Below, piece after piece: positions 16,596 through 35,391 of a DNA stretch of 53,335 bases. Every line of letters starts with the position of its first letter. The first letter of the stretch is position 1. This DNA comes from Gammaproteobacteria bacterium (lineage in GTDB: Bacteria; Pseudomonadota; Gammaproteobacteria; Ga0077554; Ga007554), in assembly GCA_040183005.1 (NCBI GenBank), contig JAMPIW010000006.1, positions 1 to 53,335 on the forward strand. Direction: 5' to 3'. The notes beneath the pieces are model-generated. The model saw nothing but the letters and a program-made list of their open reading frames with translations, made no database searches and was not told the DNA's origin. Made by a program: the position numbers and the translations under genes.

Positions 16596-19500
16596 TCAAT
16601 CCCCAAAGCCAATCACTTCCACCGTCAGGAACGAAGGCCGGAAGGTGGTTTTCACCGGATTGGCGGCTGCCGCGGAGAGATCCTGGGTGGCCTTTTCGGC
16701 GATTTTGCTGGTGTCGGCGCCGATGTTGCTTACACCGCTCAGGGTGCCGGCGAGTGAGCCGGCGTCGGGAGCGGGCACGTTGGACTTACCACCGGCAGTG
16801 ATATTATCTCCCCCGATCACAGTGCCAGGGATCCAGAGGCCGCCCGCCGCACCGATACCGGCGTCACCGGCATTGACCACCCCTTTGGGAGCTATCAGGT
16901 CAACATCACCCGGCATGATATCCGTGCCTGCCAGGATGGAACGTATGCCGCTGCCGGACACCGAGGAAAACTTGGTTATCGTTTGGCCATTGGGGAGCGT
17001 GATCACCACTGGCGGGGGCGCGGAGACAGCGGTTTTGGCGCCCTTGCCGGCGTCGATGTTACCTTCGGACGACCAGATGAGGATGTCGCCGCCGCGTAAG
17101 GTAAAGACCCGCGATTCATTGACCGCGAAATCGCCCTTGACGAAGGCACGCACCGCACCGGTATCCTGCGCCACGATACCAAGCTGATCGGCTACCTTGG
17201 CGGAACCGGACTCGGCGGGCGGCGTGGTCTGGCCGGCGTTGACCCCACCACCGGGCACGAGAAGATTGATGTCGCCGCCGGATTCGGTTTTGATCTGACT
17301 GAAGAGCAGGCTTATATCGCCGTGGGCCTCGCCGGGAAAGAGCGACGCGATGGCCTCATAGCCGCGCGAGTAAGCGCTGCTTCCAACCTCCGGGGTATAG
17401 GCCCTGCCCGCCGCTTTCAACTCATCGTAGAAGGCTTTGATAATGAGCGATTTCTGTTGCTCCGGCGTAAGCGCCTTGAAGGCGGCCAACGCCTGATCCG
17501 GCGCCAGAGCATCGTTTTTGGTCAGGGTTTTCATGTAACTCGTCAACTCATCCAGATGCGCCGCTGTCACCGTGCGCTTGAACTCCTGCAATGCCTGCGC
17601 GTCGGTGGGATTGGCAAGCTTGTCATTGAGTTTGATTGTTTGCTTGATGTAGGCTGCCAGATCCCCGCTGTATTTATAGTCCTGCGCAGTGAGTGTATTG
17701 GCGGGGTCGAAATACTTCTCGATGAACAAGCCATAGTCCGCCTGGCCCGCAACGCCCGCCATCACCGTCACATCCGCGCCGCGCGCCGGCAGGCTGGGAT
17801 TGTCGAGATTGCCACGGCTTACTATGCCCGTGGAATTGCCCAGATCGACATTGTGCCCGGCCTGGATATCCAGGCGGCCGGGGCCGCCGAGATAGATCTG
17901 CCCAACGTTTTGAATCTGCGCGCCGGTGCTGGCGTCGCGCGGCGTATTAAAAAATATATCGCGTTGCGCTGTAAGGCTAGTCACGTCGCTTTGCGCGACA
18001 TTCTGGCTCCATAGGAATATGTTTTTGATATCCCTGCCCGCATAAAAACGCGCCTGCTTGGCGAGGTAAAACGCGCCGTTTATATCGCCGGTATTGGCAA
18101 CCACCTGCACTGGCTCGTTATTGGGCACTATGTCCTGGAGATGAATAGGGGTTGATGCATGGGTGGCAGCGCCGAATGTTCCCAAGCGATAAATGGTGTC
18201 CTGCAAAACTACCTGACCGCCTGGATTGACGGGGATATACAACGGATTCACCAACAAGGCAGGGTCGGCATCCGACAGGTTGATAAATAATGACTCGGTC
18301 GCGCTCGCGGCTGTCTTATCCCCAAAAACGACATTACCGTCAGCGAACAACCGCAAATTCCCGGCAGGGGAAGGAAACAGCGTCATGCTATTTTGCACAA
18401 CGATATTACCCTCAAGCGCGCGCGCGGTCAGGCTACCTGGATAGACCTGAAGCATGGGTCTATCAGTAGTTGGCCGCCCATCTTTAATGAAAGAAATGTC
18501 TTTGAGAGTTCCTACCCCCTTGGCAACTGCCTGCTCGATCGCATCCAGATTGTTGGCAAAAGTGACATCGCCCGCCACAGAGGTAATCGCGGCAGCGCTG
18601 CTGGGGCTATAGGTAAAGAAATAGGTCTTCGCGGCATTGGAGGTCACCGACGTATCTTGCGCAACCACCGTCGGATTCAGTATGGTTTCGATCTGCACAT
18701 CGCCAGCGGCGCGGACATCGAATTTGCCATCGCCCAGGGCGAGAATGGTATGCACCGGCAGGTCTTTGTATGCAGTATCGGCTGGATTAGTGTCGGCAAC
18801 CTTGCGCCCTGCCACGATCGAACCGCCTGCCTGCAGCAATCCCATGCCCTTGCCCACATAGAAAACACCGCTGCGGATGTCGCCGCCGGCATCGATGCTC
18901 ATATCGCCGCCGCCGGTCACCACCAGCTTGTCGGAATCGGGTAGCGTCTTCGTTACGCCGGGGAGCCTGCCGGTAGTGGGTATGACCACCGACAGGTTAT
19001 CGATATTCCCGCCCGCGTTCACACTCACATCGCCGCCGCCAAGCGCGCCCACGTTCTGCGCGAATTTGCCGAAGTTGATCCACCAGCTGGTGTTGCGGCC
19101 GCTCACTATCGTGCCGTCATTAGCGTTGGTTTGTCCGCGCCGCTGCAGCCATTCGGTGATGAGCTGGTGAGTAACGGCGCCCTTCACGTCATTGCCGGCA
19201 CGGATATGGATGTCGCCGCCATTGACCGGGTAATTCACGCTTATACCCGACCCGGTCGGCACCGGGAACTTATCCTCCGGGGCGGATGGCTCGCCTGCGG
19301 TATAGAGGGCGGCATTGGATTTGTTGATGCCGGACGCATCCTTGCCGAGTTCGAAGTTGCGCGCTGCGGCGACATCAATATCGCCCGTACCGGTGCGCAC
19401 CAGCTTGCCGGCGGAGATAGCGACATCGCCCTTGCCGTTGGCAAGCTGCGCGGCGGGCAATATTGCCAAGGGATCGGCGCTGCCCAGATCGGCCCCGCCC

Positions 19501-22500
19501 GCCAGACGGTAAGACCAGGACGGGCCGGCCTTCAGCAAGCTGGCGGGTGTGACGCCGCTAAAGCCATCGCTCAGGCTGCTTCTCAGGTTCAGATTGTCAA
19601 CGGCGCGCAAGGTCAGTACACCTGGCTCGTTACCCGCGCCAAAGCGCCAGCCGGACAAGTCCCAGTCGTTGGCGAGCGTCAAGTCACCCGTGCTTTGCAC
19701 CTCGATACCGGGCGCAACGTGGAAGGCGGGATCGGATGTTTTGCCCAGACGCGCCTTGATGGCATCAACATTGGCATCGTCCATATACGCCAGTGTTTCG
19801 TTCCTCCAGGTGTTAAACCTGGCTGTGTTGATGCTGCTTGCGGTATAAACTTTGACCGCCTCGACGGTGACCGTGTCGGCACCCTTGATCGTCCCCGCCA
19901 GCGATGCCACATTCACATCGGCGCCGTTACGCGGTGCGCGCAACGCTACCCGTCCGCCTGCACCGGCCTGGCTGGACACATCAATTACGGATTTATCCTG
20001 CACATCTATAACGCCCGCCGTGGTCGCCAACTCAACCTTGCCGCCTTTGACATTATCGGCAGTGGCGTGGGCATCCAGGGTACTTCCGGCATGCAACACC
20101 ACATCGCCCTGCGCGGACAATGCGATATGGCCGCCTTTCGCGCCAGAGGCATCCACCGTGCCCTGAACGTCGATCTTGCCGCTGTCCGCCGTCAGCTTGA
20201 AATCATGCGCTCTGACGGTGTCCGTCGCCGCCACCATGACATCACCGCTACGGACACGCAGATCCCGCGCCTCGGTGAACCCGCCTGTTGCGTGCCTATT
20301 GCCTTGCTTATCCAGCGTCGCGCCCAGGTTCAAGGCTGTGTTCAGCGTGGAAAAATCATCCAGCGTCGCGACATCCAGTGTAAAGGTGCCCTGCAGTGAC
20401 GCCTGCTCCTGTCCCGCCGCCGTCACCGCAGTACCCTTCAGCGTCCCGGCGGCGATGTGCGCGGTACCCGCGGCGGCGCCGATGTTGAGCGCGCCGGCAT
20501 CGCCGCCGCTTTCAGCGCCGGAGACATCGACGCTCGCGCCATTTTGCACCTCGACATTGCCTTTTACGGAGACCAGGCTGACCTTGCCGGCCGGTGCTGA
20601 GACCGGTACGCCGTCAAAGGTCTTGGTGAGTCCTGTGGCATTGATTTGCGCTCCATCGGTCAATATCACGTCGCCATCGCGCGCTGTAAGGGTGACCTTG
20701 CCGACGGGCAGTTCAATCCTGCCCGCATCGCGAATGCTGGCTCCAATGATGCTAAGGTTTGCCGCCAGCGCGCTCGCGGTGGGCAGATCCGCGGTTGGCG
20801 CGGCTTGGACGATAGCGACATCGCCGGAAGCGGAATAGGTTTGATCAGCGCGTTTCGCGGCGCCAAGGCGGCCCGCCTCTAGCGTCAAATTCCCCATCAC
20901 ATCCAGCGTGCCTTTGCCTTGGCCGGTGATCTCACGGCCTGCGGCAATATCCACCTGGCTGAAACCTTGAATCTTCTTATCGCCTTCTCCCAAAGTGATC
21001 TGATCCGCGCCTATTGCCAGCTTGCCTAGTCCGTCCGGCGTATCCGCTGTGGCAATCTTGCTGGGATTGGAGAATGTCACTTCACCCGCATTGATTCTGG
21101 CGGTTTTGCCTGCATTGGCATAACCATTGATACCCCCCGCCTCCAGGGAGAGCTTGGCAAGCAAGCGTTTGCCGCCGGCATCCACACCGCCCAGAGCGAC
21201 ATCGCCCCAAAGATCGAGCGTGCTGTAACTGCGCAGCGTGAGATTTGCCGCTTTGTTCAAAGCGGCCAGCTGCTCCTTGGAGAACACCAGACCGCTGGTA
21301 ACGGCGGACGTTTCTCCCAGGCTGATGCGCCCGGCGCCGATGGCAAGCGCGCCGTTTTCCTGGAGGTTGAGCGCGCCCTTGAAGGTGTTGCCGGCCGTGG
21401 CGTCAAGCGCCACCGACTTGCCTTCCAGCACCGACCCCGATTCGACATCCAGCGCACCGTGCGACCCATCGGCATTCAGGCGGGTGATGGCCGCCGACCC
21501 GCCGGAAGACACGCGCAGCAAAGCCCCGTTGCCGTCAATATCGCTGCTATTACTGTTGGCGGGATCAACCTTGTCACCGATCTGGATATCTTTGGGGGTA
21601 CCCGAAAAATTTCCCTTGCCTTGAATCACGCTCCCCGCCTTCACCTGCACCTGACCGGTTGCGGCAAGTATGACTTCTGGTGCGGTTAGTGTATTTGCGG
21701 CATCGTTGGCGACAACGATTTGCTCGCTGTTTACGCGAATTGTCGGGCCGCCCGTGATTTGCTGGCGCGTTCCGCCAAGCAGCAGACTGCTTGCGCCGAG
21801 CCTGCTCAGGCTGGCCGCATCAATCGTTACAAAGCCCTCGGCCTGGCTCCCCGCAGTCTGCGGCGAAACTATCGCCAGCCTGGTAGCGGAGATATCCACC
21901 GCTGCGCCACGGCCATCGGCGGCGTGAGCAGCGCTCAGGGTGGCGTCCAAACGGAGTGCTTTACCCGCCGCAATAGCCAGCGTCCCCGCGTCACCCGGCA
22001 GCTCCGGAACCGCTGCGTTGCTCGCGGCGGCCGCCTGCGCGGTAAAAAATGCCCCCGCATAGTTGTCGTTATATTGCGCCTGCCGCCGCGCCGCATCGCC
22101 CGGCGTAACGGCAAAACCGGACCAGCGGCTGTCCAGCACATCGCTGCCAGAGGCCAACTTACCCGCGAGCACCTCGCTGCCGTTCGCAAGCTTATAGGAC
22201 TGCCCCGGCGCGATATCCCGGTACCCTCCCTGCGCTGTCACAAGGTAGGCGCCAGGCAGCAGGGCGTAGCGTGCCGGCAACAGGGTATAGAAACCTTGCT
22301 TCAACCCTGCGCCACCGGAGAGATAAACGCTGTCTCCCAGCATCAGATTGGAGTCCTTGTAATATTGCTGATCGAATGGCGCGGGCGAAACGCCCAACCC
22401 TGGCAGAATGGCATAGCTGGTATTGCTGGCGAGAACGTCCCTGGAACCGGTCGGCCCCGGCACAAACTCGTAGGCATACAGGTCGCCACCACCGGAGAGG

Positions 22501-25500
22501 TTAACTTTCGCCCCGCTGCGCAGATCCACGTTCGCGCCAGTCAGGCGTACGGCTTTCTGTGGCGGCGCGCCGATGGCCCTGAGGTTCCCGGAGACATCGT
22601 ATACCCAGTCCGTGCCATTCTGGGTCTTGCCATAGGGAATCAACTGGCCTTCCGCCGATACCGAAGTCTGGCTACCGGCATCCAGGATCACGTCACCGGC
22701 ATCGCCTGTGGCGTTCAGTGCGATTTCTCCCAGCGGCGCCTTGAGCACACCCTTGTTCACAATATGCGGCGCCGTCATAGTGAGCTTGCCGCCCGCCGAC
22801 AACACCGGCGCTGCATCGCTATTGGGCAGAATCTGCACCGTGCCATTGCCGCTCGTGATATTAAATTCGCTCAAGGTAGTGGGATACACCTGTCTTGCCT
22901 GCAAATTCAAGTTGTCCGCCACGGCGAACGATCCCGCCAGATTATTTGCCGTTGTCGAAGGCTGAATACCGCGCAGGCGGATATCGCCACGCGATTCCAG
23001 ATTGGCCTCTTTCACGCCTTGCAGCGAGCTGCTGCCGATGAGTTCGATCAAATCCGCGCGCGCGGTCAAAGTGCCCTCGCCACCGGTCGCGGCAGGGGGC
23101 GCCTGAAACATTAAATCGGAACTGCCCAGCGCGACATAAGCGGCGCTGAGGCTTGCCTTGCCGCCCAGCACATTCAGCGCGGGCGCATCCAGCACGATGC
23201 TGCGCTTCAGGTTGATATCAACATCGCCCTGCAATTGAATTTGATTATCGCTTTTGGCGCTGAAGCGATCGAAGCCAGCACTCGCCAGCTTGTTGACATT
23301 AAACAATGCCTGCCCGTTCAGCGCATCCGGTATCGCCTGCCCGGCGGCAAGCCCGCCGGGTATGGCCATCGCATCGCCAGCGCGCAGCACGATATCGCGG
23401 TCGCCGGATGGCGGAGCATAAGTGGTGCCTGGCACTCTGTTGACCGTAGTCAAAGTCAATGCCAGCGTGCCACCCGCAGCACTCGCCCCACTGCCCGCCT
23501 TGCCCGTCAGCTCGCCATCGAGCAGCATGCCTTCGGCGGCCGTCAGCTTGATCGAACCGGCGCTGCTCGCCACCGGCGTGTTCGCCAGACTCGTGCCGTC
23601 CGCCCCGGGCAGATCCAGGTTCGTCTGCGTACCGGACACATCGATAACGGAACCGGCCTCGGCCACCACATAGCCGCGTTTCGCATTAATGTTGACCGTC
23701 CCTCCCGGCAGCACCTCACCCTTGCGGGTTCCCTGCGCGTTAGGCTGCAAACTCACCGCTCCGCGGCTCAACAAACCACTGTCGCGGCCCAGCCAAATCG
23801 CCTGCGCTGGCTGGAAAGGGTAATCCAGGTCCGCATTCAGGCTGAGATTAATGGCGCCCGCCGGGGCATCAATTTGCCCGTCGATAACCATCCCGGTTTG
23901 GGTGCTCAACGCAATCTTCGCACCGGGATCGGCCTGTATCAGCGAACCGGTCTCCATCCTTAGCCTGGAACCGTCCAACGCCGAGCTATGGTTCAAGGTC
24001 AGGCTCACCGGCGTTCGCTGCTCAGGCAGCGCCGCCAATTGCGCAAAATCGCGGATATCCGCGCCGGTGGACTGCATGACATAGCGCGTACCCAAGTCAA
24101 GATAGGGCGCTTGCAGAGTAATTGTGGTGCCGGCGGCAACAACCAAATCACCCTTGGAAACGGTCTGCATGGCCGATCCGTTCGCTGTAATCACATAGCT
24201 GGCAAAACCCAGGCGGTTGAATATCCATGAGGGGACAGTCAATTGCGTGGACCGGGATAGTTGGGCAGGGTCGATGAGCAAACCGGCGGGCGTAGCCAGC
24301 GGCGCGCCGTCCTTGATCAATATCTCAGGGGCGGCGAGCTTCAATGTCCCGCCGCCGCCTGGCGCGAGACCTTGCAACGCCGCACCAAGCATCAGCCTGC
24401 CGCCGCTGTCGATGGTTATATCGCCGCCTTTGCCCTTTTTCAACTGCCTGCCGGCGCTCAACCAGCCGCCGCCCGTCACATCCAGAGTTGCGGGGCGCAA
24501 GATTCCGGCGTCAAGCTCACCCAAGATCAAATCCGTGTCTTTAGCGGTTTGAACAGTGATCGTGCCACCCTTTATCAGGGCCGGGCCATTCGCATTGCCC
24601 AGCGCCATTTGCGGCATATCGTTCACCCACATACCACGCGCGGAGATCACCTTGCCCGCGCCTACCGTCAACTTCCCCCCATTGGCCCCCAGAGAAATCG
24701 TGCCGGCGGGCACGGTAATATTGGCATTGATGTCGAGCGTAGTGGCGCTCAGCTTCAGCTCGCCGCCCTCCGGCAAGCGCAAATCCACGGGGACATCGAT
24801 GCGTCCGTTGCGATTAAAATCCATGCGGCTGAAACCGCCGTTCACCAAAAAATCGGTCGACATGGCCAGGGGCGCCGTTACGGGACCATTCGTCAAATCA
24901 CCCGTCGCGGATGGCCCGGTCTGAAAAATCACATCGTGAATGTTTGTCCCGCCTGCATACAGGTAATCATCCACGATGAGCTTACCACCCAGAGGCAGCT
25001 TGCCTGCCTCCCGCTGGTACAAACCCGCTGTGGCGCTGCCGCGGAAATCGCCATCCAGAACCAGACCGTAGCCTTTGAAGCTTATCGTTCCGGCGTCTTT
25101 CCCTTCGATGTATTCCGGCGAGAATTGCCCTACATTATCCAAACCGAAAGTTTCCTTCACTCCCCATTTGTTGCTTTGCCTGCTGTACACCCCGGCAATA
25201 CCGTCGTAAACACGGTCGGGAGAGGCATTGCCGATGTCATACAACACTCCCTGCGACACCAGCTTGGTAGTGCTGATATAACCATCGAGGTAATGGAGGC
25301 GTCCACCGGAAATATCTATCTTGGCGCCCCCTTGCATCACGATGTCGCCCTGCGATTTGATGTCCACCGAACCGCCCACTGCGGTCTTTTCCGCCACGCC
25401 CCGGGGAATCGCCGCGATATATTTGGACACATCCGCCACCGGCGTGCCGGTGCGCGCGTCTATAGTGACCGTTTTGCCTCGCAAGATACCATTGCGCTGT

Positions 25501-26891
25501 ACCGGAAAATCCTTGAGTTCATCACCGCGCAGCTCCACACTAAGCTGATTGCGGGACATTGGCAGTTCGAGCTCCTTGACATCCCGGGTGCCCGAAACGT
25601 CGATCTGGCTCGATGCGCCAAGATAAACCCCGCCATCGCTGCGCGGAGGAGTCCTGGCCGGCGCCGGATCAGACAAGTTATATACCGATGGATCATCCAC
25701 GGCCGTGATGGCGACCACGCCGCCGGGCGCGACAATATTGCCGTCAACATGCACAGTCTTGCCCATGATATCGACGCGCGAAGGACTAAAGGCCACACTA
25801 TCGTCAATAGTCGCGGCATCGCCCAATTGCGGCCGCACCTCGGTCACGCTGCCCGCACCCAGCTTCACTTCGCCGGTATGCGTTGCATGCAAGGTAGTAG
25901 TGTCGACGTCAGACTTCGCCACTACCGTATCGCGCGCCAGCAGGCGGATCGAGCCATTGGCACGCACCGTGGTCGTGGCGCTGAGCCTGCCCATCTGATT
26001 CACCGCCAGCCCCATCAGGGTGATATTGCCGCGCTCGGCGATGATGGTTCCTCCCGCCGCATTGGTCGCCGTTCCGCCGGCGTCGACCTCCACCAGCAGG
26101 CCGCGCAGATTGACGTCACTGCTGCCGCGCAAATACACTTTCTGCCCCGCGCCGAGGATCACCTGGCCGTCCGGCGCTTCGATCCGCCCCCTGTTTTCGA
26201 CGGTGGGCGCGAACAGCATGATCTTGCCGCCCGGCCGCGCCGTCAACGAAGCGTCCACATCCACGACGATCCCGCCATTGCCACCGCCCGCGAACGAGGG
26301 CACGGGTGTGGTACCTGTTTGGCTAAAGAGTCCGCCGCTTTTGAACTGTGCGTCCGAGACATTCAGGCTAGAGGCGATCAGCCCGCCGACATCAATCTGC
26401 GCGCCCTTGTCGAACAGGATGCCGTTCTGGTTGATGAGATAGACCTGGCCATTGGCACTAAGAGCACCGGCGATCCGCGAGGCATCCGACTGCCAGATAT
26501 GATTCAAGGCCACCGAACCCGAGTCCGGCTGCTTGAATTCCACGCTATTGCCCGCCCCGATGTTAAAGCTGCCCCAGTTGAGGATGACCCGTGGATCGAG
26601 CTGATTGACGGTTCCCTTTGCGCCCGCCACAGCGTAATCCGCCCGCCCGCTGGTCTCAAATGGCAGATTGAGCGCCGGGTTCGTGCCGCACAGGCCGCCG
26701 CCGCACGGCACCGGCAATTCCGCATGCACTGGCAGCAACACCACCAACAACATCCCGCCCCCTAGCGCAGCATGTTTTCCCGCCCTGTTGCGCCGTCCGC
26801 CGCCGGGCTGGCGTGTCCTCGCCCCTTCCCAGGCAGGCACCAGCATGCCTAGTCCTTTGTTAAAAACCAAACGGAACAGGTTGGCGTTCAT
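16596..26891 (-). CDS. Giant TpsA filamentous-haemagglutinin-family exoprotein
   Basis: The largest gene here encodes 3431 residues. It starts with an extended signal peptide typical of TpsA exoproteins (MNANLFRLVFNKGLGMLVPA), a hydrophobic core ending VHA at 57, then a TPS domain (NQLDPRVILNWGSFNIGAG, ALNHIWQSDASRIAG, INQNGILF at 153-160). The rest is a long beta-helix of filamentous-haemagglutinin type rich in Gly, Ala, Asp and Asn (GGKIMLFAPTVENRGRIEAP). The C-terminal third looks like the DUF3739 haemagglutinin family, and the protein ends PSFLTVEVIGFGD, a tail I recall as conserved in that group. The ATG has a GGAG site. A Cys pair (63, 68) follows the signal peptide. Its TpsB partner is encoded 116 bases upstream. 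Likely a surface adhesin or matrix filament. Confidence 0.93.
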   Translation of the reverse strand: MNANLFRLVFNKGLGMLVPAWEGARTRQPGGGRRNRAGKHAALGGGMLLVVLLPVHAELPVPCGGGLCGTNPALNLPFETSGRADYAVAGAKGTVNQLDPRVILNWGSFNIGAGNSVEFKQPDSGSVALNHIWQSDASRIAGALSANGQVYLINQNGILFDKGAQIDVGGLIASSLNVSDAQFKSGGLFSQTGTTPVPSFAGGGNGGIVVDVDASLTARPGGKIMLFAPTVENRGRIEAPDGQVILGAGQKVYLRGSSDVNLRGLLVEVDAGGTATNAAGGTIIAERGNITLMGLAVNQMGRLSATTTVRANGSIRLLARDTVVAKSDVDTTTLHATHTGEVKLGAGSVTEVRPQLGDAATIDDSVAFSPSRVDIMGKTVHVDGNIVAPGGVVAITAVDDPSVYNLSDPAPARTPPRSDGGVYLGASSQIDVSGTRDVKELELPMSRNQLSVELRGDELKDFPVQRNGILRGKTVTIDARTGTPVADVSKYIAAIPRGVAEKTAVGGSVDIKSQGDIVMQGGAKIDISGGRLHYLDGYISTTKLVSQGVLYDIGNASPDRVYDGIAGVYSRQSNKWGVKETFGLDNVGQFSPEYIEGKDAGTISFKGYGLVLDGDFRGSATAGLYQREAGKLPLGGKLIVDDYLYAGGTNIHDVIFQTGPSATGDLTNGPVTAPLAMSTDFLVNGGFSRMDFNRNGRIDVPVDLRLPEGGELKLSATTLDINANITVPAGTISLGANGGKLTVGAGKVISARGMWVNDMPQMALGNANGPALIKGGTITVQTAKDTDLILGELDAGILRPATLDVTGGGWLSAGRQLKKGKGGDITIDSGGRLMLGAALQGLAPGGGGTLKLAAPEILIKDGAPLATPAGLLIDPAQLSRSTQLTVPSWIFNRLGFASYVITANGSAMQTVSKGDLVVAAGTTITLQAPYLDLGTRYVMQSTGADIRDFAQLAALPEQRTPVSLTLNHSSALDGSRLRMETGSLIQADPGAKIALSTQTGMVIDGQIDAPAGAINLSLNADLDYPFQPAQAIWLGRDSGLLSRGAVSLQPNAQGTRKGEVLPGGTVNINAKRGYVVAEAGSVIDVSGTQTNLDLPGADGTSLANTPVASSAGSIKLTAAEGMLLDGELTGKAGSGASAAGGTLALTLTTVNRVPGTTYAPPSGDRDIVLRAGDAMAIPGGLAAGQAIPDALNGQALFNVNKLASAGFDRFSAKSDNQIQLQGDVDINLKRSIVLDAPALNVLGGKASLSAAYVALGSSDLMFQAPPAATGGEGTLTARADLIELIGSSSLQGVKEANLESRGDIRLRGIQPSTTANNLAGSFAVADNLNLQARQVYPTTLSEFNITSGNGTVQILPNSDAAPVLSAGGKLTMTAPHIVNKGVLKAPLGEIALNATGDAGDVILDAGSQTSVSAEGQLIPYGKTQNGTDWVYDVSGNLRAIGAPPQKAVRLTGANVDLRSGAKVNLSGGGDLYAYEFVPGPTGSRDVLASNTSYAILPGLGVSPAPFDQQYYKDSNLMLGDSVYLSGGAGLKQGFYTLLPARYALLPGAYLVTAQGGYRDIAPGQSYKLANGSEVLAGKLASGSDVLDSRWSGFAVTPGDAARRQAQYNDNYAGAFFTAQAAAASNAAVPELPGDAGTLAIAAGKALRLDATLSAAHAADGRGAAVDISATRLAIVSPQTAGSQAEGFVTIDAASLSRLGASSLLLGGTRQQITGGPTIRVNSEQIVVANDAANTLTAPEVILAATGQVQVKAGSVIQGKGNFSGTPKDIQIGDKVDPANSNSSDIDGNGALLRVSSGGSAAITRLNADGSHGALDVESGSVLEGKSVALDATAGNTFKGALNLQENGALAIGAGRISLGETSAVTSGLVFSKEQLAALNKAANLTLRSYSTLDLWGDVALGGVDAGGKRLLAKLSLEAGGINGYANAGKTARINAGEVTFSNPSKIATADTPDGLGKLAIGADQITLGEGDKKIQGFSQVDIAAGREITGQGKGTLDVMGNLTLEAGRLGAAKRADQTYSASGDVAIVQAAPTADLPTASALAANLSIIGASIRDAGRIELPVGKVTLTARDGDVILTDGAQINATGLTKTFDGVPVSAPAGKVSLVSVKGNVEVQNGASVDVSGAESGGDAGALNIGAAAGTAHIAAGTLKGTAVTAAGQEQASLQGTFTLDVATLDDFSTLNTALNLGATLDKQGNRHATGGFTEARDLRVRSGDVMVAATDTVRAHDFKLTADSGKIDVQGTVDASGAKGGHIALSAQGDVVLHAGSTLDAHATADNVKGGKVELATTAGVIDVQDKSVIDVSSQAGAGGRVALRAPRNGADVNVASLAGTIKGADTVTVEAVKVYTASSINTARFNTWRNETLAYMDDANVDAIKARLGKTSDPAFHVAPGIEVQSTGDLTLANDWDLSGWRFGAGNEPGVLTLRAVDNLNLRSSLSDGFSGVTPASLLKAGPSWSYRLAGGADLGSADPLAILPAAQLANGKGDVAISAGKLVRTGTGDIDVAAARNFELGKDASGINKSNAALYTAGEPSAPEDKFPVPTGSGISVNYPVNGGDIHIRAGNDVKGAVTHQLITEWLQRRGQTNANDGTIVSGRNTSWWINFGKFAQNVGALGGGDVSVNAGGNIDNLSVVIPTTGRLPGVTKTLPDSDKLVVTGGGDMSIDAGGDIRSGVFYVGKGMGLLQAGGSIVAGRKVADTNPADTAYKDLPVHTILALGDGKFDVRAAGDVQIETILNPTVVAQDTSVTSNAAKTYFFTYSPSSAAAITSVAGDVTFANNLDAIEQAVAKGVGTLKDISFIKDGRPTTDRPMLQVYPGSLTARALEGNIVVQNSMTLFPSPAGNLRLFADGNVVFGDKTAASATESLFINLSDADPALLVNPLYIPVNPGGQVVLQDTIYRLGTFGAATHASTPIHLQDIVPNNEPVQVVANTGDINGAFYLAKQARFYAGRDIKNIFLWSQNVAQSDVTSLTAQRDIFFNTPRDASTGAQIQNVGQIYLGGPGRLDIQAGHNVDLGNSTGIVSRGNLDNPSLPARGADVTVMAGVAGQADYGLFIEKYFDPANTLTAQDYKYSGDLAAYIKQTIKLNDKLANPTDAQALQEFKRTVTAAHLDELTSYMKTLTKNDALAPDQALAAFKALTPEQQKSLIIKAFYDELKAAGRAYTPEVGSSAYSRGYEAIASLFPGEAHGDISLLFSQIKTESGGDINLLVPGGGVNAGQTTPPAESGSAKVADQLGIVAQDTGAVRAFVKGDFAVNESRVFTLRGGDILIWSSEGNIDAGKGAKTAVSAPPPVVITLPNGQTITKFSSVSGSGIRSILAGTDIMPGDVDLIAPKGVVNAGDAGIGAAGGLWIPGTVIGGDNITAGGKSNVPAPDAGSLAGTLSGVSNIGADTSKIAEKATQDLSAAAANPVKTTFRPSFLTVEVIGFGD

Positions 26892-27007: not shown

Positions 27008-28627
27008 TTAAAATTCATACGCCAGGCGGAAATGGAAACGCACATCTCCCGCCGTGGTATAGGCCGTGCTCGTAAAGGGCACCGCCGCATCGACAGCCAT
27101 GTTCAGATGGCGCCATCCACGGAATCTCGCCCCCACTCCCGCGCTCGACAGGTCAAAGCGCGACAGCTGTCCGGGCAAGGGCTGCGAGACGCGCAGCTTT
27201 GCGCCCTCCAGAAATCCTAAAACATAAAAGTCATCGACTCTTGCGGATAGCGCTTTGGCGAAGGAGCGGCTGCGCAATTCCAGGCTGCCGCGCATACCAT
27301 TGTCGGCCAGCCGCTCGAACATCAAGTAACCACGCACGCTGTCCACACCGCCCGCGCCAAATTGCTCGTTGCTGATCAAGGGCTGATCGGCCAACTGCCC
27401 GTCGATCCGCGCGACCAAGGTCATGCCCAGCGGCAATTTCTGAGCGCGCTGCAAACCTGCCTTCAGGTATAAATAATTGGCCTTGGCATTGTGGCGCTTG
27501 CATTCAAACTGGCTCACGTCTTGCCCGAAGCAATCAATCCTTTTATCCGCAAGGCCACGCAAGGCGAAATTCAACCCCACATCCGCCTGTGTCACGCCTC
27601 TATCGCCTTGTATGGTCGCGTTGTATTGCACTGAAAATGGCAAATAACTGATCGGGGTACGAATGGAATCCGCACCAAGCAGCGTCACGTTCTCCTTGAA
27701 GTCCTTGTAATCAAATCCCAACGACAAGGAATGAAAATAACGGTCGCGTTGCGGCAGCGGCAGAATGGCGCGCACCCCATAAATATCGCCCTGCCCCAGC
27801 ACCGATATATTTCCCACCGCCGCAACATTACTGCGTGAACGCACGGCGTACATGGCGATCAATTTATCGGAATCCGGCACTGGCAATAGATATGAAGCGG
27901 AAAGCACGCTGACCTCGCTGGTGTTTTCCGGCGCGGTCTGGTATTGCAAACTCAAGCTGTGCTCTCGCTGCCACAGATTGTCATAACGCACCATGCCGGT
28001 CAGCCGCAATGGGCTGGTATTGCCACTGTAACGGTTATTCAATTCCAGGCTTGCGTGCAGCGGCAGCTTGTCTTCAACCTTGAAATCAACCTCCACAGTG
28101 CCAGGCGTCTTGCCCGGCCTGAGTATCGGCGTCACGCGCCGGTCCGCGTTACGGTTGACTTGGCCCAAGCCTTTCTGCACATCCGGCAGATACAGCACAC
28201 CGCCCTGCGTCAGCGCCGGGAATTTTTCCAGGATGTGCCCCTGCGAATAGTAACGGGAGCCGACAACACGCACCTTCTCAACCTTGCCTTCCGTCACGCG
28301 CAATCGCACCATTCGGTTGTTCACATCCTGCTCGGGGATATCCACCAGCACGGTGGGATACCCTGCATCGCGGTAGGCCTTTTCCAGATCGGCGCGCGCC
28401 TTTTCCACGTCCTCGATCTTTTTTGCCGTGCCCAAATGCGGATAAAGCACCTTCTCGATCTTTATGACAGGCAGCACCGTGTTACCCTCCACTCGGTACT
28501 CCGTCACATCAAAGACCAGCACCTGCTCCGCCCCGGAACTTTCAACCTGACCTTGCTTTTCCTCCGCCATCGCAGGGAATACAGCAAGAATAAAAACACA
28601 GCACAACACAAAAGAGATTTGTTTCAT
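27008..28627 (-). CDS. TpsB (ShlB/FhaC family) two-partner secretion transporter
   Basis: A 539-residue Omp85-superfamily pore. A signal peptide ends AMAEE near residue 22. POTRA 1 covers about 36-112 (VTEYRVEGNTVLPVIKIEKVL, MVRLRVTEGKVEKVRVVG) and POTRA 2 about 114-187, followed by a 16-strand-type barrel. The barrel has the conserved lid-lock motif VRGY (in VDSVRGYLMF) and ends FHFRLAYEF with terminal Phe. It should recognise the TPS domain of the adjacent TpsA and thread it across the outer membrane. No clear ribosome site precedes the ATG, so translation may be weak or the start misplaced by a few codons. Confidence 0.93.
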   Translation of the reverse strand: MKQISFVLCCVFILAVFPAMAEEKQGQVESSGAEQVLVFDVTEYRVEGNTVLPVIKIEKVLYPHLGTAKKIEDVEKARADLEKAYRDAGYPTVLVDIPEQDVNNRMVRLRVTEGKVEKVRVVGSRYYSQGHILEKFPALTQGGVLYLPDVQKGLGQVNRNADRRVTPILRPGKTPGTVEVDFKVEDKLPLHASLELNNRYSGNTSPLRLTGMVRYDNLWQREHSLSLQYQTAPENTSEVSVLSASYLLPVPDSDKLIAMYAVRSRSNVAAVGNISVLGQGDIYGVRAILPLPQRDRYFHSLSLGFDYKDFKENVTLLGADSIRTPISYLPFSVQYNATIQGDRGVTQADVGLNFALRGLADKRIDCFGQDVSQFECKRHNAKANYLYLKAGLQRAQKLPLGMTLVARIDGQLADQPLISNEQFGAGGVDSVRGYLMFERLADNGMRGSLELRSRSFAKALSARVDDFYVLGFLEGAKLRVSQPLPGQLSRFDLSSAGVGARFRGWRHLNMAVDAAVPFTSTAYTTAGDVRFHFRLAYEF

Positions 28628-30266: not shown

Positions 30267-31094
30267 TTACGCGGACAAACGGCGGCGGGCGACGGCGCCC
30301 ACGGCCAGCAGGCCCATGGCGAACATCGCCCAGGTTTCTGCCTCAGGCACCGCAGCAACCGTATAGTTCAGGTTGCCATCTGCGCCCAGCATGAACTGGG
30401 CCTTGCTGTCGGCACTGCCATATTTGAACTGCAGGGCCTCGGCGCTGGCCGTGCTGCTAGAGCGGGTAAGGTAGTAGAATTCCAATGCCGTGCCGACGTT
30501 GGAATTGGTATTAAATGACGCCTTGCCACTCATGGCTTCGTTCTTGAGGCCCGCGTAGTACGCATTGCCGGAAGTAAAGATGCCGGACTTGCTGGCACCC
30601 AAGGTGAGATTGGCGGTTTGCAGCGCGGTATTCACAATACTCATATTACTAATATTGGCGTTGTTCTGCTGCACACCTGCGGTCGTCGGCCACGCAGTAA
30701 GATCCTCGTTCGTGGTAGTAAGATAACGCTGCTGGTGAGCGCCGGATGTTCCTACGCTATCCAAGGCGGCCACATCCCACTTGAAATTGGCGATATCCGC
30801 AGCGGACTTGCCGGCAACAAACGTGCTCCAGGTAGAATCCGCTACCCAGCTCTTGGTGAAACCAGGTGTGGCGTCCACGTTAGCCGTAAAACTGGCCGCG
30901 GCAGGTGCATTCACCGTGCCGAAATCGTTCATCAATGTATCCAGGCCGCGGATATAGGACTGTTGGCCCACTGAATCCCATACCGACAGGAACAACTCGC
31001 CGTTACCGTTAGTACCATCCTGAATTGCTGCGGCCGCTTGACCTGCGGCAGCCAGCGCAACAGCGGCGGCCAATACTTTAAGTTTCATGCTCAT
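30267..31094 (-). CDS. PEP-CTERM exosortase-sorted protein
   Basis: A 275-residue exported protein. The N-terminus MSMKLKVLAAAVALAAAGQAAAA is a signal peptide, and a GGGAG ribosome site lies upstream. The Ser/Thr/Asn/Ala-rich body has no family I recognise. The C-terminus is a PEP-CTERM sorting signal: VPEAETWAMFAMGLLAVGAV then ARRR, with PEA replacing PEP, a hydrophobic segment and a basic tail. Such proteins are cut by an exosortase and usually delivered to the surface or matrix together with an exopolysaccharide. The exosortase itself is outside the window. The neighbouring epsA/B/D-like genes fit that pathway. Confidence 0.9.
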   Translation of the reverse strand: MSMKLKVLAAAVALAAAGQAAAAIQDGTNGNGELFLSVWDSVGQQSYIRGLDTLMNDFGTVNAPAAASFTANVDATPGFTKSWVADSTWSTFVAGKSAADIANFKWDVAALDSVGTSGAHQQRYLTTTNEDLTAWPTTAGVQQNNANISNMSIVNTALQTANLTLGASKSGIFTSGNAYYAGLKNEAMSGKASFNTNSNVGTALEFYYLTRSSSTASAEALQFKYGSADSKAQFMLGADGNLNYTVAAVPEAETWAMFAMGLLAVGAVARRRLSA

Positions 31095-31153
31095 TTAAAA
31101 TCGCTCCCTAATGCAAAGTTTATTGAATTACCCACACATCCCCCACATCCCTG

Positions 31154-31175
31154 TATGCCAAATCCATTTGGCATA
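31154..31175. promoter_or_regulatory. 22-bp perfect palindrome upstream of the PEP-CTERM gene
   Basis: Arms tatgccaaat and atttggcata flank a CC centre with no mismatch. It lies about 60-80 bases upstream of the PEP-CTERM start codon, where an operator is expected. It could also be a hairpin in the leader mRNA. It differs in sequence from the two palindromes further upstream. Confidence 0.55.
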
Positions 31176-31335
31176 TATCCCTGACTCCTCCCTCAGCACA
31201 CTTCAATCCCCGCCTCATGGCAGGCACAACTCTTTAAAAGCAGTACGAACACCTCGACCCAAAAACATTTCCAGTGCATCGAGACGCTATCGTCTCAGAT
31301 AATTATTACGCTTTTGTGTTAAAACTCTTTATCGC

Positions 31336-31355
31336 CATAGGCCGTTCGGACTATG
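31336..31355. promoter_or_regulatory. Palindromic site A (CCGTTCGG core)
   Basis: The sequence catag-gccgttcgga-ctatg is an 18-20 bp dyad with one mismatch. It is the same site, in reverse orientation, as that at 31462-31481. Two copies of a dyad of LuxR-regulator size in the promoter region of a PEP-CTERM gene, next to a LuxR-type regulator gene (epsA), make an operator likely. The binding protein is inferred. Confidence 0.6.
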
Positions 31356-31461
31356 ACCGGGGAGACTTTGTTTTATTTGTTAGTGACCGCAATACGACAA
31401 AATTCAATTCCGTGAATATAAGGACGGAATATTGCAGCAGCATGAATGGAGGAGTGGTGTG

Positions 31462-31481
31462 CATAGTCCGAACGGACTATT
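31462..31481. promoter_or_regulatory. Palindromic site B (CCGAACGG core)
   Basis: The core atagtccg-aa-cggactat (31463-31480) is a perfect 8+8 dyad around AA. It repeats site A, about 126 bases away (roughly twelve helical turns). This spacing would allow looping between two bound dimers. A TTGACA lies directly at its right edge on the plus strand, but no plus-strand gene follows. Confidence 0.62.
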
Positions 31482-31549
31482 GACAAGATGTAAAAATAAA
31501 TATCTTTGCAGCGAGGAAACGGTCGTCTGATCCGTTTAATTAACCCTAA

Positions 31550-31714
31550 TCAATGCATAAAATATTCGACATCTTCCGTTTTACATAAATAATATTCAAA
31601 AAAATCATCGCCCGACCAGACGTCGGCGTCATCCTCAATATCGTCAATAAATAAATCATCAAGGTCATCATTACGCTCATCATCCATCCCGGCATAAAGA
31701 TATGTGTTTTTCAT
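31550..31714 (-). CDS. Small acidic protein (54 aa)
   Basis: A short ORF begins at an ATG with a GAGGTG ribosome site at ideal spacing. The product starts MKNTYLYAGMDDERNDDLDD and ends VEYFMH. It holds about 19 Asp/Glu and only three Lys/Arg, with several aromatic residues in the second half (SGDDFFEYYLCK). There is no signal peptide or membrane segment. It lies between epsA and the PEP-CTERM gene, all on the minus strand, in an otherwise AT-rich 730-base gap. I know no family for it. Acidic proteins of this kind can be DNA mimics or small regulators, but nothing here proves that. Confidence 0.5.
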   Translation of the reverse strand: MKNTYLYAGMDDERNDDLDDLFIDDIEDDADVWSGDDFFEYYLCKTEDVEYFMH

Positions 31715-31824
31715 CGCCCCACCTCACGTTAACGAAACATCTTCCATGAATATAATCAGCGATTATTACAAATAGACTATTATTTAAAAAAGTAATACCG
31801 CCCATAAAACACGGGGGCGCCCTG

Positions 31825-32604
31825 CTAGATAATATTTAGCTCAATTGCCTTGGAAACCGCATGACCTCTGGTTTGAACGCCGAGCTTCCTGGTGATCTTA
31901 CAGATGTGGTTTTTTACGGTAAACGGGCTAATGCCAAGGATGGCAGCAATCGCCCAATTGCTCTTGCCAACCTGAATCCACCTCAACACCTCTTTTTCCC
32001 TGTCGGTTATGATCACACTGCAAGGCTGGGCATCCCTGCCACTCTCATGATCATCAACCACGGCACTTATCATGGCACGATGAAGGTAAGGAACAAGCAC
32101 CTCAAGCAATCGAGCATGATGCGGACCCACATCCCCTGGGACACGCATAAAACTGAAAAATGACACAACATTCTCATTCGTGTCGTGCATGCCATGCGAC
32201 ACGAGATGATCTATGCCTTCCTTTTCCAGGGTGGACATTCCACCCTCGCCGATAGCGACACGGATGGAATCTTTATCCATCACTAATGGGCATAGTGACT
32301 TTTTCCATGCGCCCATCAGCTTATTCATCACGCCATTATCACCGCACAACATGCCGTCAATTAATTTATCGCTCACAGAGATTCCACAGAACGTGTCCAC
32401 ATAGGTCTTTTTTCCTGGTATGTCATGCAGAAACGACACCATCACTTCATGAGGAAATATGTTCTGCAACTCCCCGCGCGCCCAGATGAAAAATTGATTT
32501 TTGCTTTTGATATGAAAGGAGGACTCGACGGCATCCATAAGCGTCTTAAGCGCTACCCCATCAAGATCTATTGATTCATTCATGTGGTTATTAAATATCC
32601 GCAT
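31825..32604 (-). CDS. epsA: LuxR-type transcriptional regulator EpsA (exosortase/EPS-associated)
   Basis: A 259-residue regulator. The N-terminal two thirds form a sensor-like domain (FHIKSKNQFFIWARGELQNI, FPHEVMVSFLHDI) found in the EpsA regulators that accompany XrtB-type exosortase and methanolan-like EPS clusters. Residues of about 195-259 are a LuxR/GerE helix-turn-helix (TDREKEVLRWIQVGKSNWAIAAILGISPFTVKNHICKI, split by family position). The gene is coupled to epsB by a TAATG overlap. It probably controls EPS and PEP-CTERM genes; the paired palindromes at 31336 and 31462 are candidate targets. Confidence 0.85.
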   Translation of the reverse strand: MRIFNNHMNESIDLDGVALKTLMDAVESSFHIKSKNQFFIWARGELQNIFPHEVMVSFLHDIPGKKTYVDTFCGISVSDKLIDGMLCGDNGVMNKLMGAWKKSLCPLVMDKDSIRVAIGEGGMSTLEKEGIDHLVSHGMHDTNENVVSFFSFMRVPGDVGPHHARLLEVLVPYLHRAMISAVVDDHESGRDAQPCSVIITDREKEVLRWIQVGKSNWAIAAILGISPFTVKNHICKITRKLGVQTRGHAVSKAIELNII

Positions 32605-34070
32605 TAATAAGCATGACGATCCTTGAAAACCAGCAGAACGGTTTTCATTATGATTTTAATGTCAAGGTCCATGGACCAATGTCTTAAATAATCCAGGTCA
32701 TAATCGATACGGAGCTTCATTTTCTCAAGGGTTTCCGTCTCGCCGCGCAACCCGTTCACCTGCGCCCATCCGGTGATACCCGGCCTGACCTTGTGACGCA
32801 CCATGTAGCCCTTGATCAATTTCCTGTAAATTTCATTGTGGGCCACCGCATGGGGACGCGGCCCAACCACGCTCATCCTTCCTTGCAGCACATTGATAAA
32901 TTGAGGCAGCTCATCCAGCGAAGTGCGTCGCAGAAACGCGCCAAAAGGAGTGATGCGCTTATCAGTACGGGTCGCCTGACTGACCTGATCCCCGTCTTCA
33001 CAGACCGTCATGCTGCGGAACTTGTAAACCACAATATCCTCACCATCCAGCCCATATCTGCGCTGGCAAAACAGGATAGAGCCAGGCGAACTTGCCTTGA
33101 CGCCGATCGCCAGCAACAGCATAACGGGAGATAACACAGTCAGGGCCGCGCCAGAGAAGACAATGTCGAACATCCGCTTCAACAAACCGCTCAGGCCAAA
33201 GAATGGCGTTTCACACACCGACATGACGGGTATGCCATTGATCTCCCCCATCCTGGCCTGAATCAGATCAAAAAAGGATATATCAGGGACAAAGTATACC
33301 GACGCCGTGGTGTCACGCAGCCCATTCAACAAGTTTACGATGCGCTCCTGCTTCACCATGGGAAGCGCAATATAAATCACATCTATCCTGTTATCCGATA
33401 CATAGCGCGCCATGTCGTCAAGTCGCCCAAGAAGCTGATCGCTCCCTATCGCGCCCAGACGATCAATCGAGCGGTCATCAAAATATCCCTTCAAAGACAT
33501 GCCCATCTGAGGACTGCCGCATATGCTTTGCGCAAGCCGCTGGCTGGCATCATTAGCCACTGCAATGACTGCTGAGCGGGTATTGGTTTCCAATTGGTAA
33601 AATTTTGAAACCAGTATGCGTACCAAGCCATTTCCCAGCAAAATGACAGGGGGCACTGCAAAAAACCAGGTCAGCATCACGCGCCTGGAAAACTCCTCGG
33701 AGTACTTGGTTGCATACCCAAGAAACAGCATAATCCCGACAAGAAGAATCCATGAAACAACCAGGCTACGGCTCCGATCCCATAACCCACGATAGCGCCA
33801 GGGCCGGCATACGTCGGACGGTTCAAAGATGACACACGAAACAAAAAAGGCGATCACTGCCAGAATAATATGGGGATTCTGCAAGGATATGTCATAGGCA
33901 TGAATAATCAGAAAAAGTGAAGCTACTATCAGAAGAGGGTCGAGAAGATACTCAAGAAGCGCCAGATAAGGCGGCATGAATGCGTTGGCATTTACATGCA
34001 GCTTCTTGTTAGGCATGTCGACAATACTCCCGTGATAGTGATTATTATGCTGTGCAATAACGGGCTTCAT
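32604..34070 (-). CDS. epsB: Undecaprenyl-phosphate sugar phosphotransferase (priming enzyme, EpsB/WcaJ type)
   Basis: A 488-residue polyprenyl glycosylphosphotransferase that starts EPS repeat-unit synthesis by loading a sugar-1-phosphate on undecaprenyl phosphate. Four to five N-terminal membrane segments (LLEYLLDPLLIVASLFLIIH onward) precede a CoA-binding-like domain (AVIAVANDASQRLAQSI) and a C-terminal bacterial sugar transferase domain. The latter has LKRMFDIVFSGAAL, FCQRRYGLDGEDIVVYKFRS, LRRTSLDELPQFINVLQG, MSVVGPRPHAVAHN and VRPGITGWAQVNGLRG. Length and layout match the WcaJ/EpsB glucose-phosphate transferases. It lies between epsD and epsA. Confidence 0.92.
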   Translation of the reverse strand: MKPVIAQHNNHYHGSIVDMPNKKLHVNANAFMPPYLALLEYLLDPLLIVASLFLIIHAYDISLQNPHIILAVIAFFVSCVIFEPSDVCRPWRYRGLWDRSRSLVVSWILLVGIMLFLGYATKYSEEFSRRVMLTWFFAVPPVILLGNGLVRILVSKFYQLETNTRSAVIAVANDASQRLAQSICGSPQMGMSLKGYFDDRSIDRLGAIGSDQLLGRLDDMARYVSDNRIDVIYIALPMVKQERIVNLLNGLRDTTASVYFVPDISFFDLIQARMGEINGIPVMSVCETPFFGLSGLLKRMFDIVFSGAALTVLSPVMLLLAIGVKASSPGSILFCQRRYGLDGEDIVVYKFRSMTVCEDGDQVSQATRTDKRITPFGAFLRRTSLDELPQFINVLQGRMSVVGPRPHAVAHNEIYRKLIKGYMVRHKVRPGITGWAQVNGLRGETETLEKMKLRIDYDLDYLRHWSMDLDIKIIMKTVLLVFKDRHAY

Positions 34071-34206: not shown

Positions 34207-35157
34207 CTACAAACCTGAGACGCCTTTTTTTATAAAATCAGCGTCATTCGACTTTTCATCAGCGACGTGCTTCGCTGCATTTTCCTGCCCTGGGTTTACT
34301 GCTGGAGGAGTGGCCTTATCATCTCCCTTGGCTGCGAATTTACCGAGCCATTCAATCTTCGCTTCGCCTCTCAGCCGTTTTACTTCATCATCGGCAAGCT
34401 TTCCGCGCTTTTGGTTCAGCAGAAAATTCTCGATCGCGGGCGCGGCCTGGGCTTCGCTCAGCGGCTGGTTGCGCACGGCCATCAGTATGGAGAGTGAAAT
34501 ATTATTCGGCGCCTCAAATGCCATCACCTGCCCCTGCCGCATCCGATACAGACGCGACAACATTTCCGGGGACAATTGTTCCGCAGACTTAACCAGCACG
34601 TCCGATTTCATCTGCACTTTTTTTGCCTCCAGCCAGCCCATCATCTCCTCAAGCGTCTTCGAACTCTTGATTTGAGCCTGAAGTTCAGCGGCAGGTATGC
34701 TCTTGTCGAGAAGGATTTCACGGATCTGATAGATGCGCCGATCAGCGAATAACTCGGGGTGCTTGCTGTAATAATCGCCAACTTCCTGCTTGCTGGGCGG
34801 TGTTGAATCCCTCCCCGCAACCTTGCTCATATATGCCTGCACCAACACCTGGTGTTTGGCGCGCTCCAACGCTTGCATCACCCGAGGATCGCGGTCAATT
34901 TTTTCCGTGACGGCTTTTTGCACAATAAGCTGTTGGTTAACAAGTTGCTCCAGGGATTGACGCGCGACTTGATCGGTATTTTTGGTGGCGGCTTGCCCCA
35001 GCAACCCCAGCTCATAGTTGAGCTGATGAACCGTGACCTCATCGCCGTTGACCTTCGCAACAACCTGACCATCCTTGCCTGGCTTGTCATCACCCCCGCA
35101 ACCGCTCAAGAGAACAGCAAGGAAGATAGCGGGTAACATAATATTTTTGCTATACAT
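34207..35157 (-). CDS. epsD: EpsD-type PpiC-like peptidyl-prolyl isomerase lipoprotein
   Basis: A 316-residue lipoprotein. The ATG at 35157 is preferred: it has an AAGG site and gives a short signal peptide with lipobox LLSGC. A GTG at 35181 is open but less likely. After a SurA-like N-terminal helical part (VNGDEVTVHQLNYELGLLGQ, QSLEQLVNQQLIVQKAV) comes a degenerate PpiC segment (YYSKHPELFADRRIYQIREI) and a helical C-terminus. The EpsD family is the PpiC-like lipoprotein of exosortase-linked EPS clusters and is thought to aid folding or export. The remaining eps export genes are absent from this window. Confidence 0.8.
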   Translation of the reverse strand: MYSKNIMLPAIFLAVLLSGCGGDDKPGKDGQVVAKVNGDEVTVHQLNYELGLLGQAATKNTDQVARQSLEQLVNQQLIVQKAVTEKIDRDPRVMQALERAKHQVLVQAYMSKVAGRDSTPPSKQEVGDYYSKHPELFADRRIYQIREILLDKSIPAAELQAQIKSSKTLEEMMGWLEAKKVQMKSDVLVKSAEQLSPEMLSRLYRMRQGQVMAFEAPNNISLSILMAVRNQPLSEAQAAPAIENFLLNQKRGKLADDEVKRLRGEAKIEWLGKFAAKGDDKATPPAVNPGQENAAKHVADEKSNDADFIKKGVSGL

Positions 35158-35391
35158 TGAAGAACGCCTTGCAAGTTTCACTGAAAGTTGGCTTGGAGAT
35201 GGGCGTTTATTGTGGAGAGGATATATGACAATCAGATGAATATCTGACCGTGAACTAAAAATGGCGTAACAGTCGGCTGGGATGTTCCAGCGGCGTTATT
35301 TAAAAATGAAGCGCTCAATTGCCGTTTCCAGGCTTAAATGAGCTGTGGGGATGCTGCGCCAGAAGATGGCTGTGAAGGCGGGGATTAAAAA

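Follow-up and report, generated by a model that had tools for sequence, protein, structure and literature searches.

A conserved lux-type palindrome upstream of PEP-CTERM genes as a candidate EpsA operator

The interval between epsA and a PEP-CTERM gene

The window, by which we mean the whole stretch of 53,335 nucleotides analysed here, carries on its minus strand epsD, an undecaprenyl-phosphate glucose phosphotransferase gene, epsA, a small acidic ORF, two copies of an 18-bp dyad (candidate EpsA boxes A and B) and a PEP-CTERM gene, in this order (Table 1). A motif scan of the window recovered box A, ATAGTCCGAACGGACTAT, without mismatches and a second copy, ATAGGCCGTTCGGACTAT (box B), with one mismatch, G for T at 31341; both are located between epsA and the PEP-CTERM gene and their starts are separated by 126 bp. 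The initial annotation had described this pair as a perfect 18-bp dyad and a one-mismatch copy about 126 bases apart, and our rescan agrees with it; the interval that it gave for the second copy, 31336-31355, is box B plus one C-G pair. It had also spoken of inverted copies. There are indeed two copies, but their inversion means little, since in palindromes the orientation is set by the centre (AA or TT) and the mismatch only. The mismatch in box B falls on the inner position that is most variable among natural copies (T, C or G) and therefore probably does not reflect damage.

Table 1. Coordinates of the features between epsD and the PEP-CTERM gene, numbered from the first letter of the window.
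Feature	Position	Strand	Remarks
epsD, peptidyl-prolyl isomerase (TIGR02925)	34207..35181	-	
Undecaprenyl-phosphate glucose phosphotransferase (TIGR03023)	32604..34070	-	upstream of epsA, same strand
epsA, LuxR-type regulator (TIGR03020)	31825..32604	-	259 aa; proposed box binder
Small acidic ORF	31550..31714	-	54 aa; in the gap between epsA and box A; kept in three relatives
Candidate EpsA box A (distal)	31463..31480	-	perfect dyad ATAGTCCG-TT-CGGACTAT; start codon of PEP-CTERM gene 369 bp on
-10-like CAATATT (tentative)	31428..31434	-	after box A, same offset as for box B; CAATAAT in two congeners
Candidate EpsA box B (proximal)	31337..31354	-	ATAGTCCG-AA-CGGCCTAT; start codon of PEP-CTERM gene 243 bp on
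-10-like TAATAAT (tentative)	31302..31308	-	30 bases after the 16-mer of box B; TAACAAT there in two congeners
PEP-CTERM protein gene	30267..31094	-	275 aa; C-terminus PEAETWA...ARRR; proposed target of both boxes

A single perfect 8+2+8 dyad would not be unusual for a sequence of 53 kb, but finding the same dyad twice is. At up to 3 mismatches the window contains 3 matches against 0.12 expected, a number that none of 100 shuffles reached. The third match, with 3 mismatches at 21026 and within a 3431-aa ORF, is probably due to chance. In the whole genome (3.33 Mb) boxes A and B are the only sites within one mismatch of the 16-mer, and matches with 2 mismatches elsewhere in it were taken as background. 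The 3431-aa ORF itself (16596-26891, minus strand) looks like a filamentous-haemagglutinin-type exoprotein gene and adjoins a ShlB/FhaC-type transporter gene (27008-28627, minus strand); the two would form a two-partner secretion pair close to the PEP-CTERM gene.

The initial annotation had placed the site before a PEP-CTERM gene with EpsA next door, which the family searches bear out: EpsA belongs to TIGR03020 with 189 bits (cut-off 170), and the PEP-CTERM product, which as a whole protein falls just short of the threshold (20.4 vs 20.7 bits), exceeds it with 25 bits when the genome is searched. EpsA occurs in this genome together with exosortase B (XrtB; 429 vs 275 bits), and the genome also carries exosortase A and PrsR. 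The 54-aa acidic ORF (MKNTYLYAGMDDERNDD...) is found at the same place in two congeners with 78-83% identity and in another genus (L007/L051) with 39%.

Recurrence of the box near epsA and PEP-CTERM genes

Two congeneric genomes (G001 and G003) keep both boxes at the same place, 114 and 125 bp apart, and epsA adjoins the boxes in every box-bearing congener. Box A is part of a block of about 29 bases that is identical in three congeneric genomes, with much of the surrounding sequence diverged. In a genome of another genus (G005) a variant pair, ATGATCCGAAAGGATCAT and ATAGTCCGAAAGGATCAT, lies about 144 bp apart between epsA and the PEP-CTERM gene, and a further genome (G004) has a looser dyad further downstream. 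Methylobacillus likewise has epsA, a diverged dyad (CTAGTCCTAAAGAACTAG) and a PEP-CTERM gene in this order. At the EpsA loci of Methylobacillus and relatives (L053-L055, L059 and L066) we observed that such diverged dyads, CTAGTCCTAAAGAACTAG and similar, have TAAGAT about 34 bases beyond them.

A scan with an EpsA alignment yielded 80 EpsA-like loci from other genomes, mostly Betaproteobacteria. The window motif was found in them 58 times at up to 3 mismatches (mean 3.1 and maximum 27 in 300 permutations of the arms), 28 times at up to 2 (mean 0.21, maximum 3) and 13 times at up to 1 (mean 0.01). Loci from near-identical species are included (for example L053-L055 and L072/L074), so these counts are not all independent. 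When the core GNCC-N4-GGNC was kept fixed and the outer pair varied, TA gave 40 matches and each of the 15 other pairs at most 9, and the box consensus reads TAGNCC-N4-GGNCTA. A strict form of the pattern, TAGNCCRWWYGGNCTA, was present in 33 of the 50 genomes with EpsA loci, far above a reversed control pattern. Conservation inside strict sites is uninformative, because the pattern fixes most positions by construction; the information lies in the free positions and in the outer-pair test.

Which genes follow the box was studied for 75 strict sites in 65 regions of EpsA-bearing genomes. About 36 of them, after hand correction, are upstream of a PEP-CTERM gene, at a median distance of about 105 bp from its start codon, so that the boxes of the window lie unusually far out. 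For background, nine of these genomes hold 201 PEP-CTERM genes, or about 0.8% of all genes (the gene number being an estimate). PEP-CTERM genes were recognised by a hand-made rule that was wrong on one gene (L166) and missed two, one at L162 and the third gene of L177; Pfam was therefore used as a check and confirmed PEP-CTERM in 23 of 48 proteins downstream of boxes. Roughly half of the strict sites are not upstream of PEP-CTERM genes, some being inside other genes; galE-type epimerases and an epsD-like gene are among the other downstream targets. One Methylophilaceae genome (L177) has three consecutive PEP-CTERM genes with a site at each, and in another genome (G173), with nine Pfam PEP-CTERM matches, at least 5 such genes have a site. 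The latter genome also shows a row of four near-identical boxes at intervals of 135-158 bp, flanked by a PEP-CTERM gene and a divergently oriented one (L094, 9859-10306 of G173:C190), and paired boxes 33 bp apart at other PEP-CTERM genes. A site that recurs inside a gene in four Comamonadaceae genomes, adjoining a 728-aa gene that we take to be glgB-like, was not counted as an operator, because its recurrence is probably owed to conservation of the coding sequence.

The initial annotation had proposed a scan of the genome for the motif before eps, exosortase and PEP-CTERM genes: PEP-CTERM genes do follow boxes in many genomes, but of the about 15 in the window's genome only one has the box, and degenerate boxes sought at 12 of the roughly 14 others were not found. 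Given these boxless genes and the presence of PrsR, any box regulon in this genome would therefore be small.

A separate set of 160 Burkholderiales, evenly drawn, included the seed genome (G144) and four others shared with the 80-locus search. Genomes were called EpsA-positive if they encode a full-length EpsA-like protein matching TIGR03020 at E<1e-25, a threshold chosen after the table had been seen. Strict boxes occur in 13 of 33 EpsA-positive and 10 of 127 EpsA-negative genomes (Fisher p=4e-5; p=1e-4 without the seed), and EpsA is present in each of the seven genomes that carry at least two boxes. Counted among the exosortase-bearing genomes, the association is 10/28 vs 2/35 (p=0.004). In EpsA-positive genomes 11 of 23 sites have a PEP-CTERM start no more than 350 bp away, against 0 of 10 in EpsA-negative ones (p=0.013). 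The strict box is absent from 20 of the 33 EpsA-positive genomes; diverged sites such as CTAGTCCTAAAGAACTAG may explain only some of these.

Promoter layout and the proposed regulator

Thirty upstream regions of PEP-CTERM genes, aligned on the box, show a single maximum in the sigma70 -10 score, for a hexamer that begins at +24 from the 16-mer (p<=5e-4), and this maximum holds with one region per gene. With the -10 hexamer at +24 the box is centred near -43.5 and covers the -35 region, and this is the predicted class II layout of a LuxR-type activator; lux boxes near -42 are known in the LuxR field. In the window's genus a -10-like element follows both boxes at +30, not at +24, and this offset together with the 243 and 369 bp distances makes the promoter of the window less certain. 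The TAAGAT spacing of about 34 bases in Methylobacillus and relatives corresponds to one helical turn beyond +24. A sigma54 -24/-12 element was sought at up to 3 mismatches in 30923-32916 of the window without a match, and none above shuffled sequences was seen in the 30 box-PEP-CTERM upstream regions.

The model of EpsA (pLDDT 87.7) resembles RhlR, CviR, SdiA and TraR over its full length (top Foldseek matches); the predicted fold is an autoinducer-binding one joined to a GerE domain. A Pfam search of EpsA returned the GerE domain only, with no match to an autoinducer domain. Among solved structures of full length, CviR is the nearest to EpsA by sequence. The recognition helix is nearly invariant in 56 EpsA-like proteins, with S226, T229, K231 and N232 invariant.

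The initial annotation had guessed at a site for a LuxR dimer and possibly an EpsA box. Conservation in the genus, enrichment at EpsA loci and co-occurrence with EpsA argue well for this guess, and the dyads are very probably EpsA binding sites. An EpsA dimer would recognise the palindrome TAGNCC-N4-GGNCTA by means of the conserved recognition helix (S-x-x-TVKNH). It would act as a class II-type activator and recruit sigma70 RNA polymerase, with the box in place of the -35 region, and the downstream PEP-CTERM gene would be switched on together with the XrtB/exopolysaccharide programme. We give this reading as a whole, in which boxes A and B are operators for an EpsA dimer that activates the PEP-CTERM gene in a class II-type manner, a probability of roughly 0.78. 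Within it we infer EpsA as the binder and activation as the mode of action, the -10-like elements of Table 1 are the putative promoter of the window, and the two boxes might cooperate.

Repression by EpsA or by another protein, with boxes A and B holding a repression loop, appears unlikely to us. Activation and repression are not fully separable from sequence alone, and the pairing of the boxes, 114-126 bp apart in three congeners and about 144 bp in G005, is what a loop would call for. However, the box spacing keeps no constant helical phase across these relatives, most targets elsewhere have a single box, and the fixed distance from box to -10 element is that of an activator.

We consider it a little less likely still that the boxes are real and their reader is not EpsA but another LuxR/NarL-family protein with a similar HTH. 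For many sites the EpsA-like protein of the genome is a paralogue that has diverged to 20-30% identity, and at one locus of another family (L042) a perfect box (1501-1516) adjoins a gene (1530-1736) for a 68-aa stand-alone LuxR-type HTH without the EpsA-type N-terminal domain. The best NCBIfam match of this small protein is EpsA, and the case supports an EpsA-type HTH as the reader of the box, but it shows as well that other proteins may share this box. Against another reader, EpsA is the sole TIGR03020-type protein in the window's genome (next match E=3.6e-9), epsA is next to the boxes in all box-bearing congeners, and the boxes track the presence of EpsA. After the HTH gene of L042 come a gene of unknown function and one whose start is SpvB N-terminal/RHS-like.

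That the palindromes act as RNA, as attenuator, terminator or leader hairpins or by pairing with each other, seems very improbable. A transcript of 31320-31500 does fold better than shuffled sequences (z -5.4), largely because the two palindromes can pair. Neither dyad is trailed by a T-run, though, and the sole terminator-like match of the stretch is elsewhere; single boxes in other genomes lie upstream of the inferred -10 of PEP-CTERM genes and therefore outside the transcript from that promoter. Chance or a functionless mobile repeat is hardly credible: a single 18-bp dyad of this type is not rare, but the conservation, the enrichment far over permuted motifs and the position before one class of gene contradict it.

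Relation to known regulatory elements

Many environmental bacteria use PEP-CTERM/exosortase systems for the export of matrix and floc proteins. The element described here has the form of a lux-type box, an inverted repeat within 16-20 bp with a short centre, and its half-site core GNCC/GGNC is that of CviR. The published CviR box of Chromobacterium violaceum, CTGNCC-N4-GGNCAG (PMC12114271), is also a 16-bp palindrome with a GNCC-N4-GGNC core and serves a LuxR-type dimer, as the EpsA box would. Only the outer two bases of each half differ, CT for CviR and TA for the EpsA box, and unlike those of CviR the predicted targets of the EpsA box are PEP-CTERM and EPS genes.

A cis-regulatory element common to PEP-CTERM genes has been described before. 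Haft et al. (2006) found across Proteobacteria a PrsR/sigma54 element before these genes, a 17-nt motif ending in TTTACA together with a sigma54 -24/-12 site and read by a Fis-type response regulator, and stated that further motifs and regulators awaited discovery (PMC1569441). The EpsA box differs from it in being a dyad with a sigma70-type -10 element and no sigma54 signal. EpsA (TIGR03020) is a known regulator family associated with XrtB and PEP-CTERM, of which the window's epsA is a member in a genome with XrtB. In the open-access literature searched we found no binding site for the EpsA family, neither the 16-mers nor the consensus, and among regulatory elements for PEP-CTERM genes only the PrsR/sigma54 one. 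The element is therefore, as predicted from sequence, a new lux-type operator with a predicted regulon, distinct from the PrsR/sigma54 box.

From a broader point of view, EpsA-type proteins could form a widespread solitary LuxR-type class that shares the operator TAGNCC-N4-GGNCTA and drives exopolysaccharide-linked PEP-CTERM export in Betaproteobacteria and the Gammaproteobacteria close to them; the signal that they answer might be a matrix-linked one other than an AHL. We put the chances of this at about even. If it were true, there would be a second, sigma70-based PEP-CTERM regulon besides that of PrsR/sigma54. As very probable EpsA sites, the boxes would in any case mark a control route for biofilm-matrix genes that had not been described before. 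With a defined operator and a named candidate regulator, how XrtB-type systems are controlled can be tested directly, and the consensus offers a simple sequence search for target genes. As a separate observation, three Methylobacillus genomes (L165, L170 and L193) have a strict box in the gap that separates the gene of a RegA-like response regulator from that of phosphoenolpyruvate synthase.
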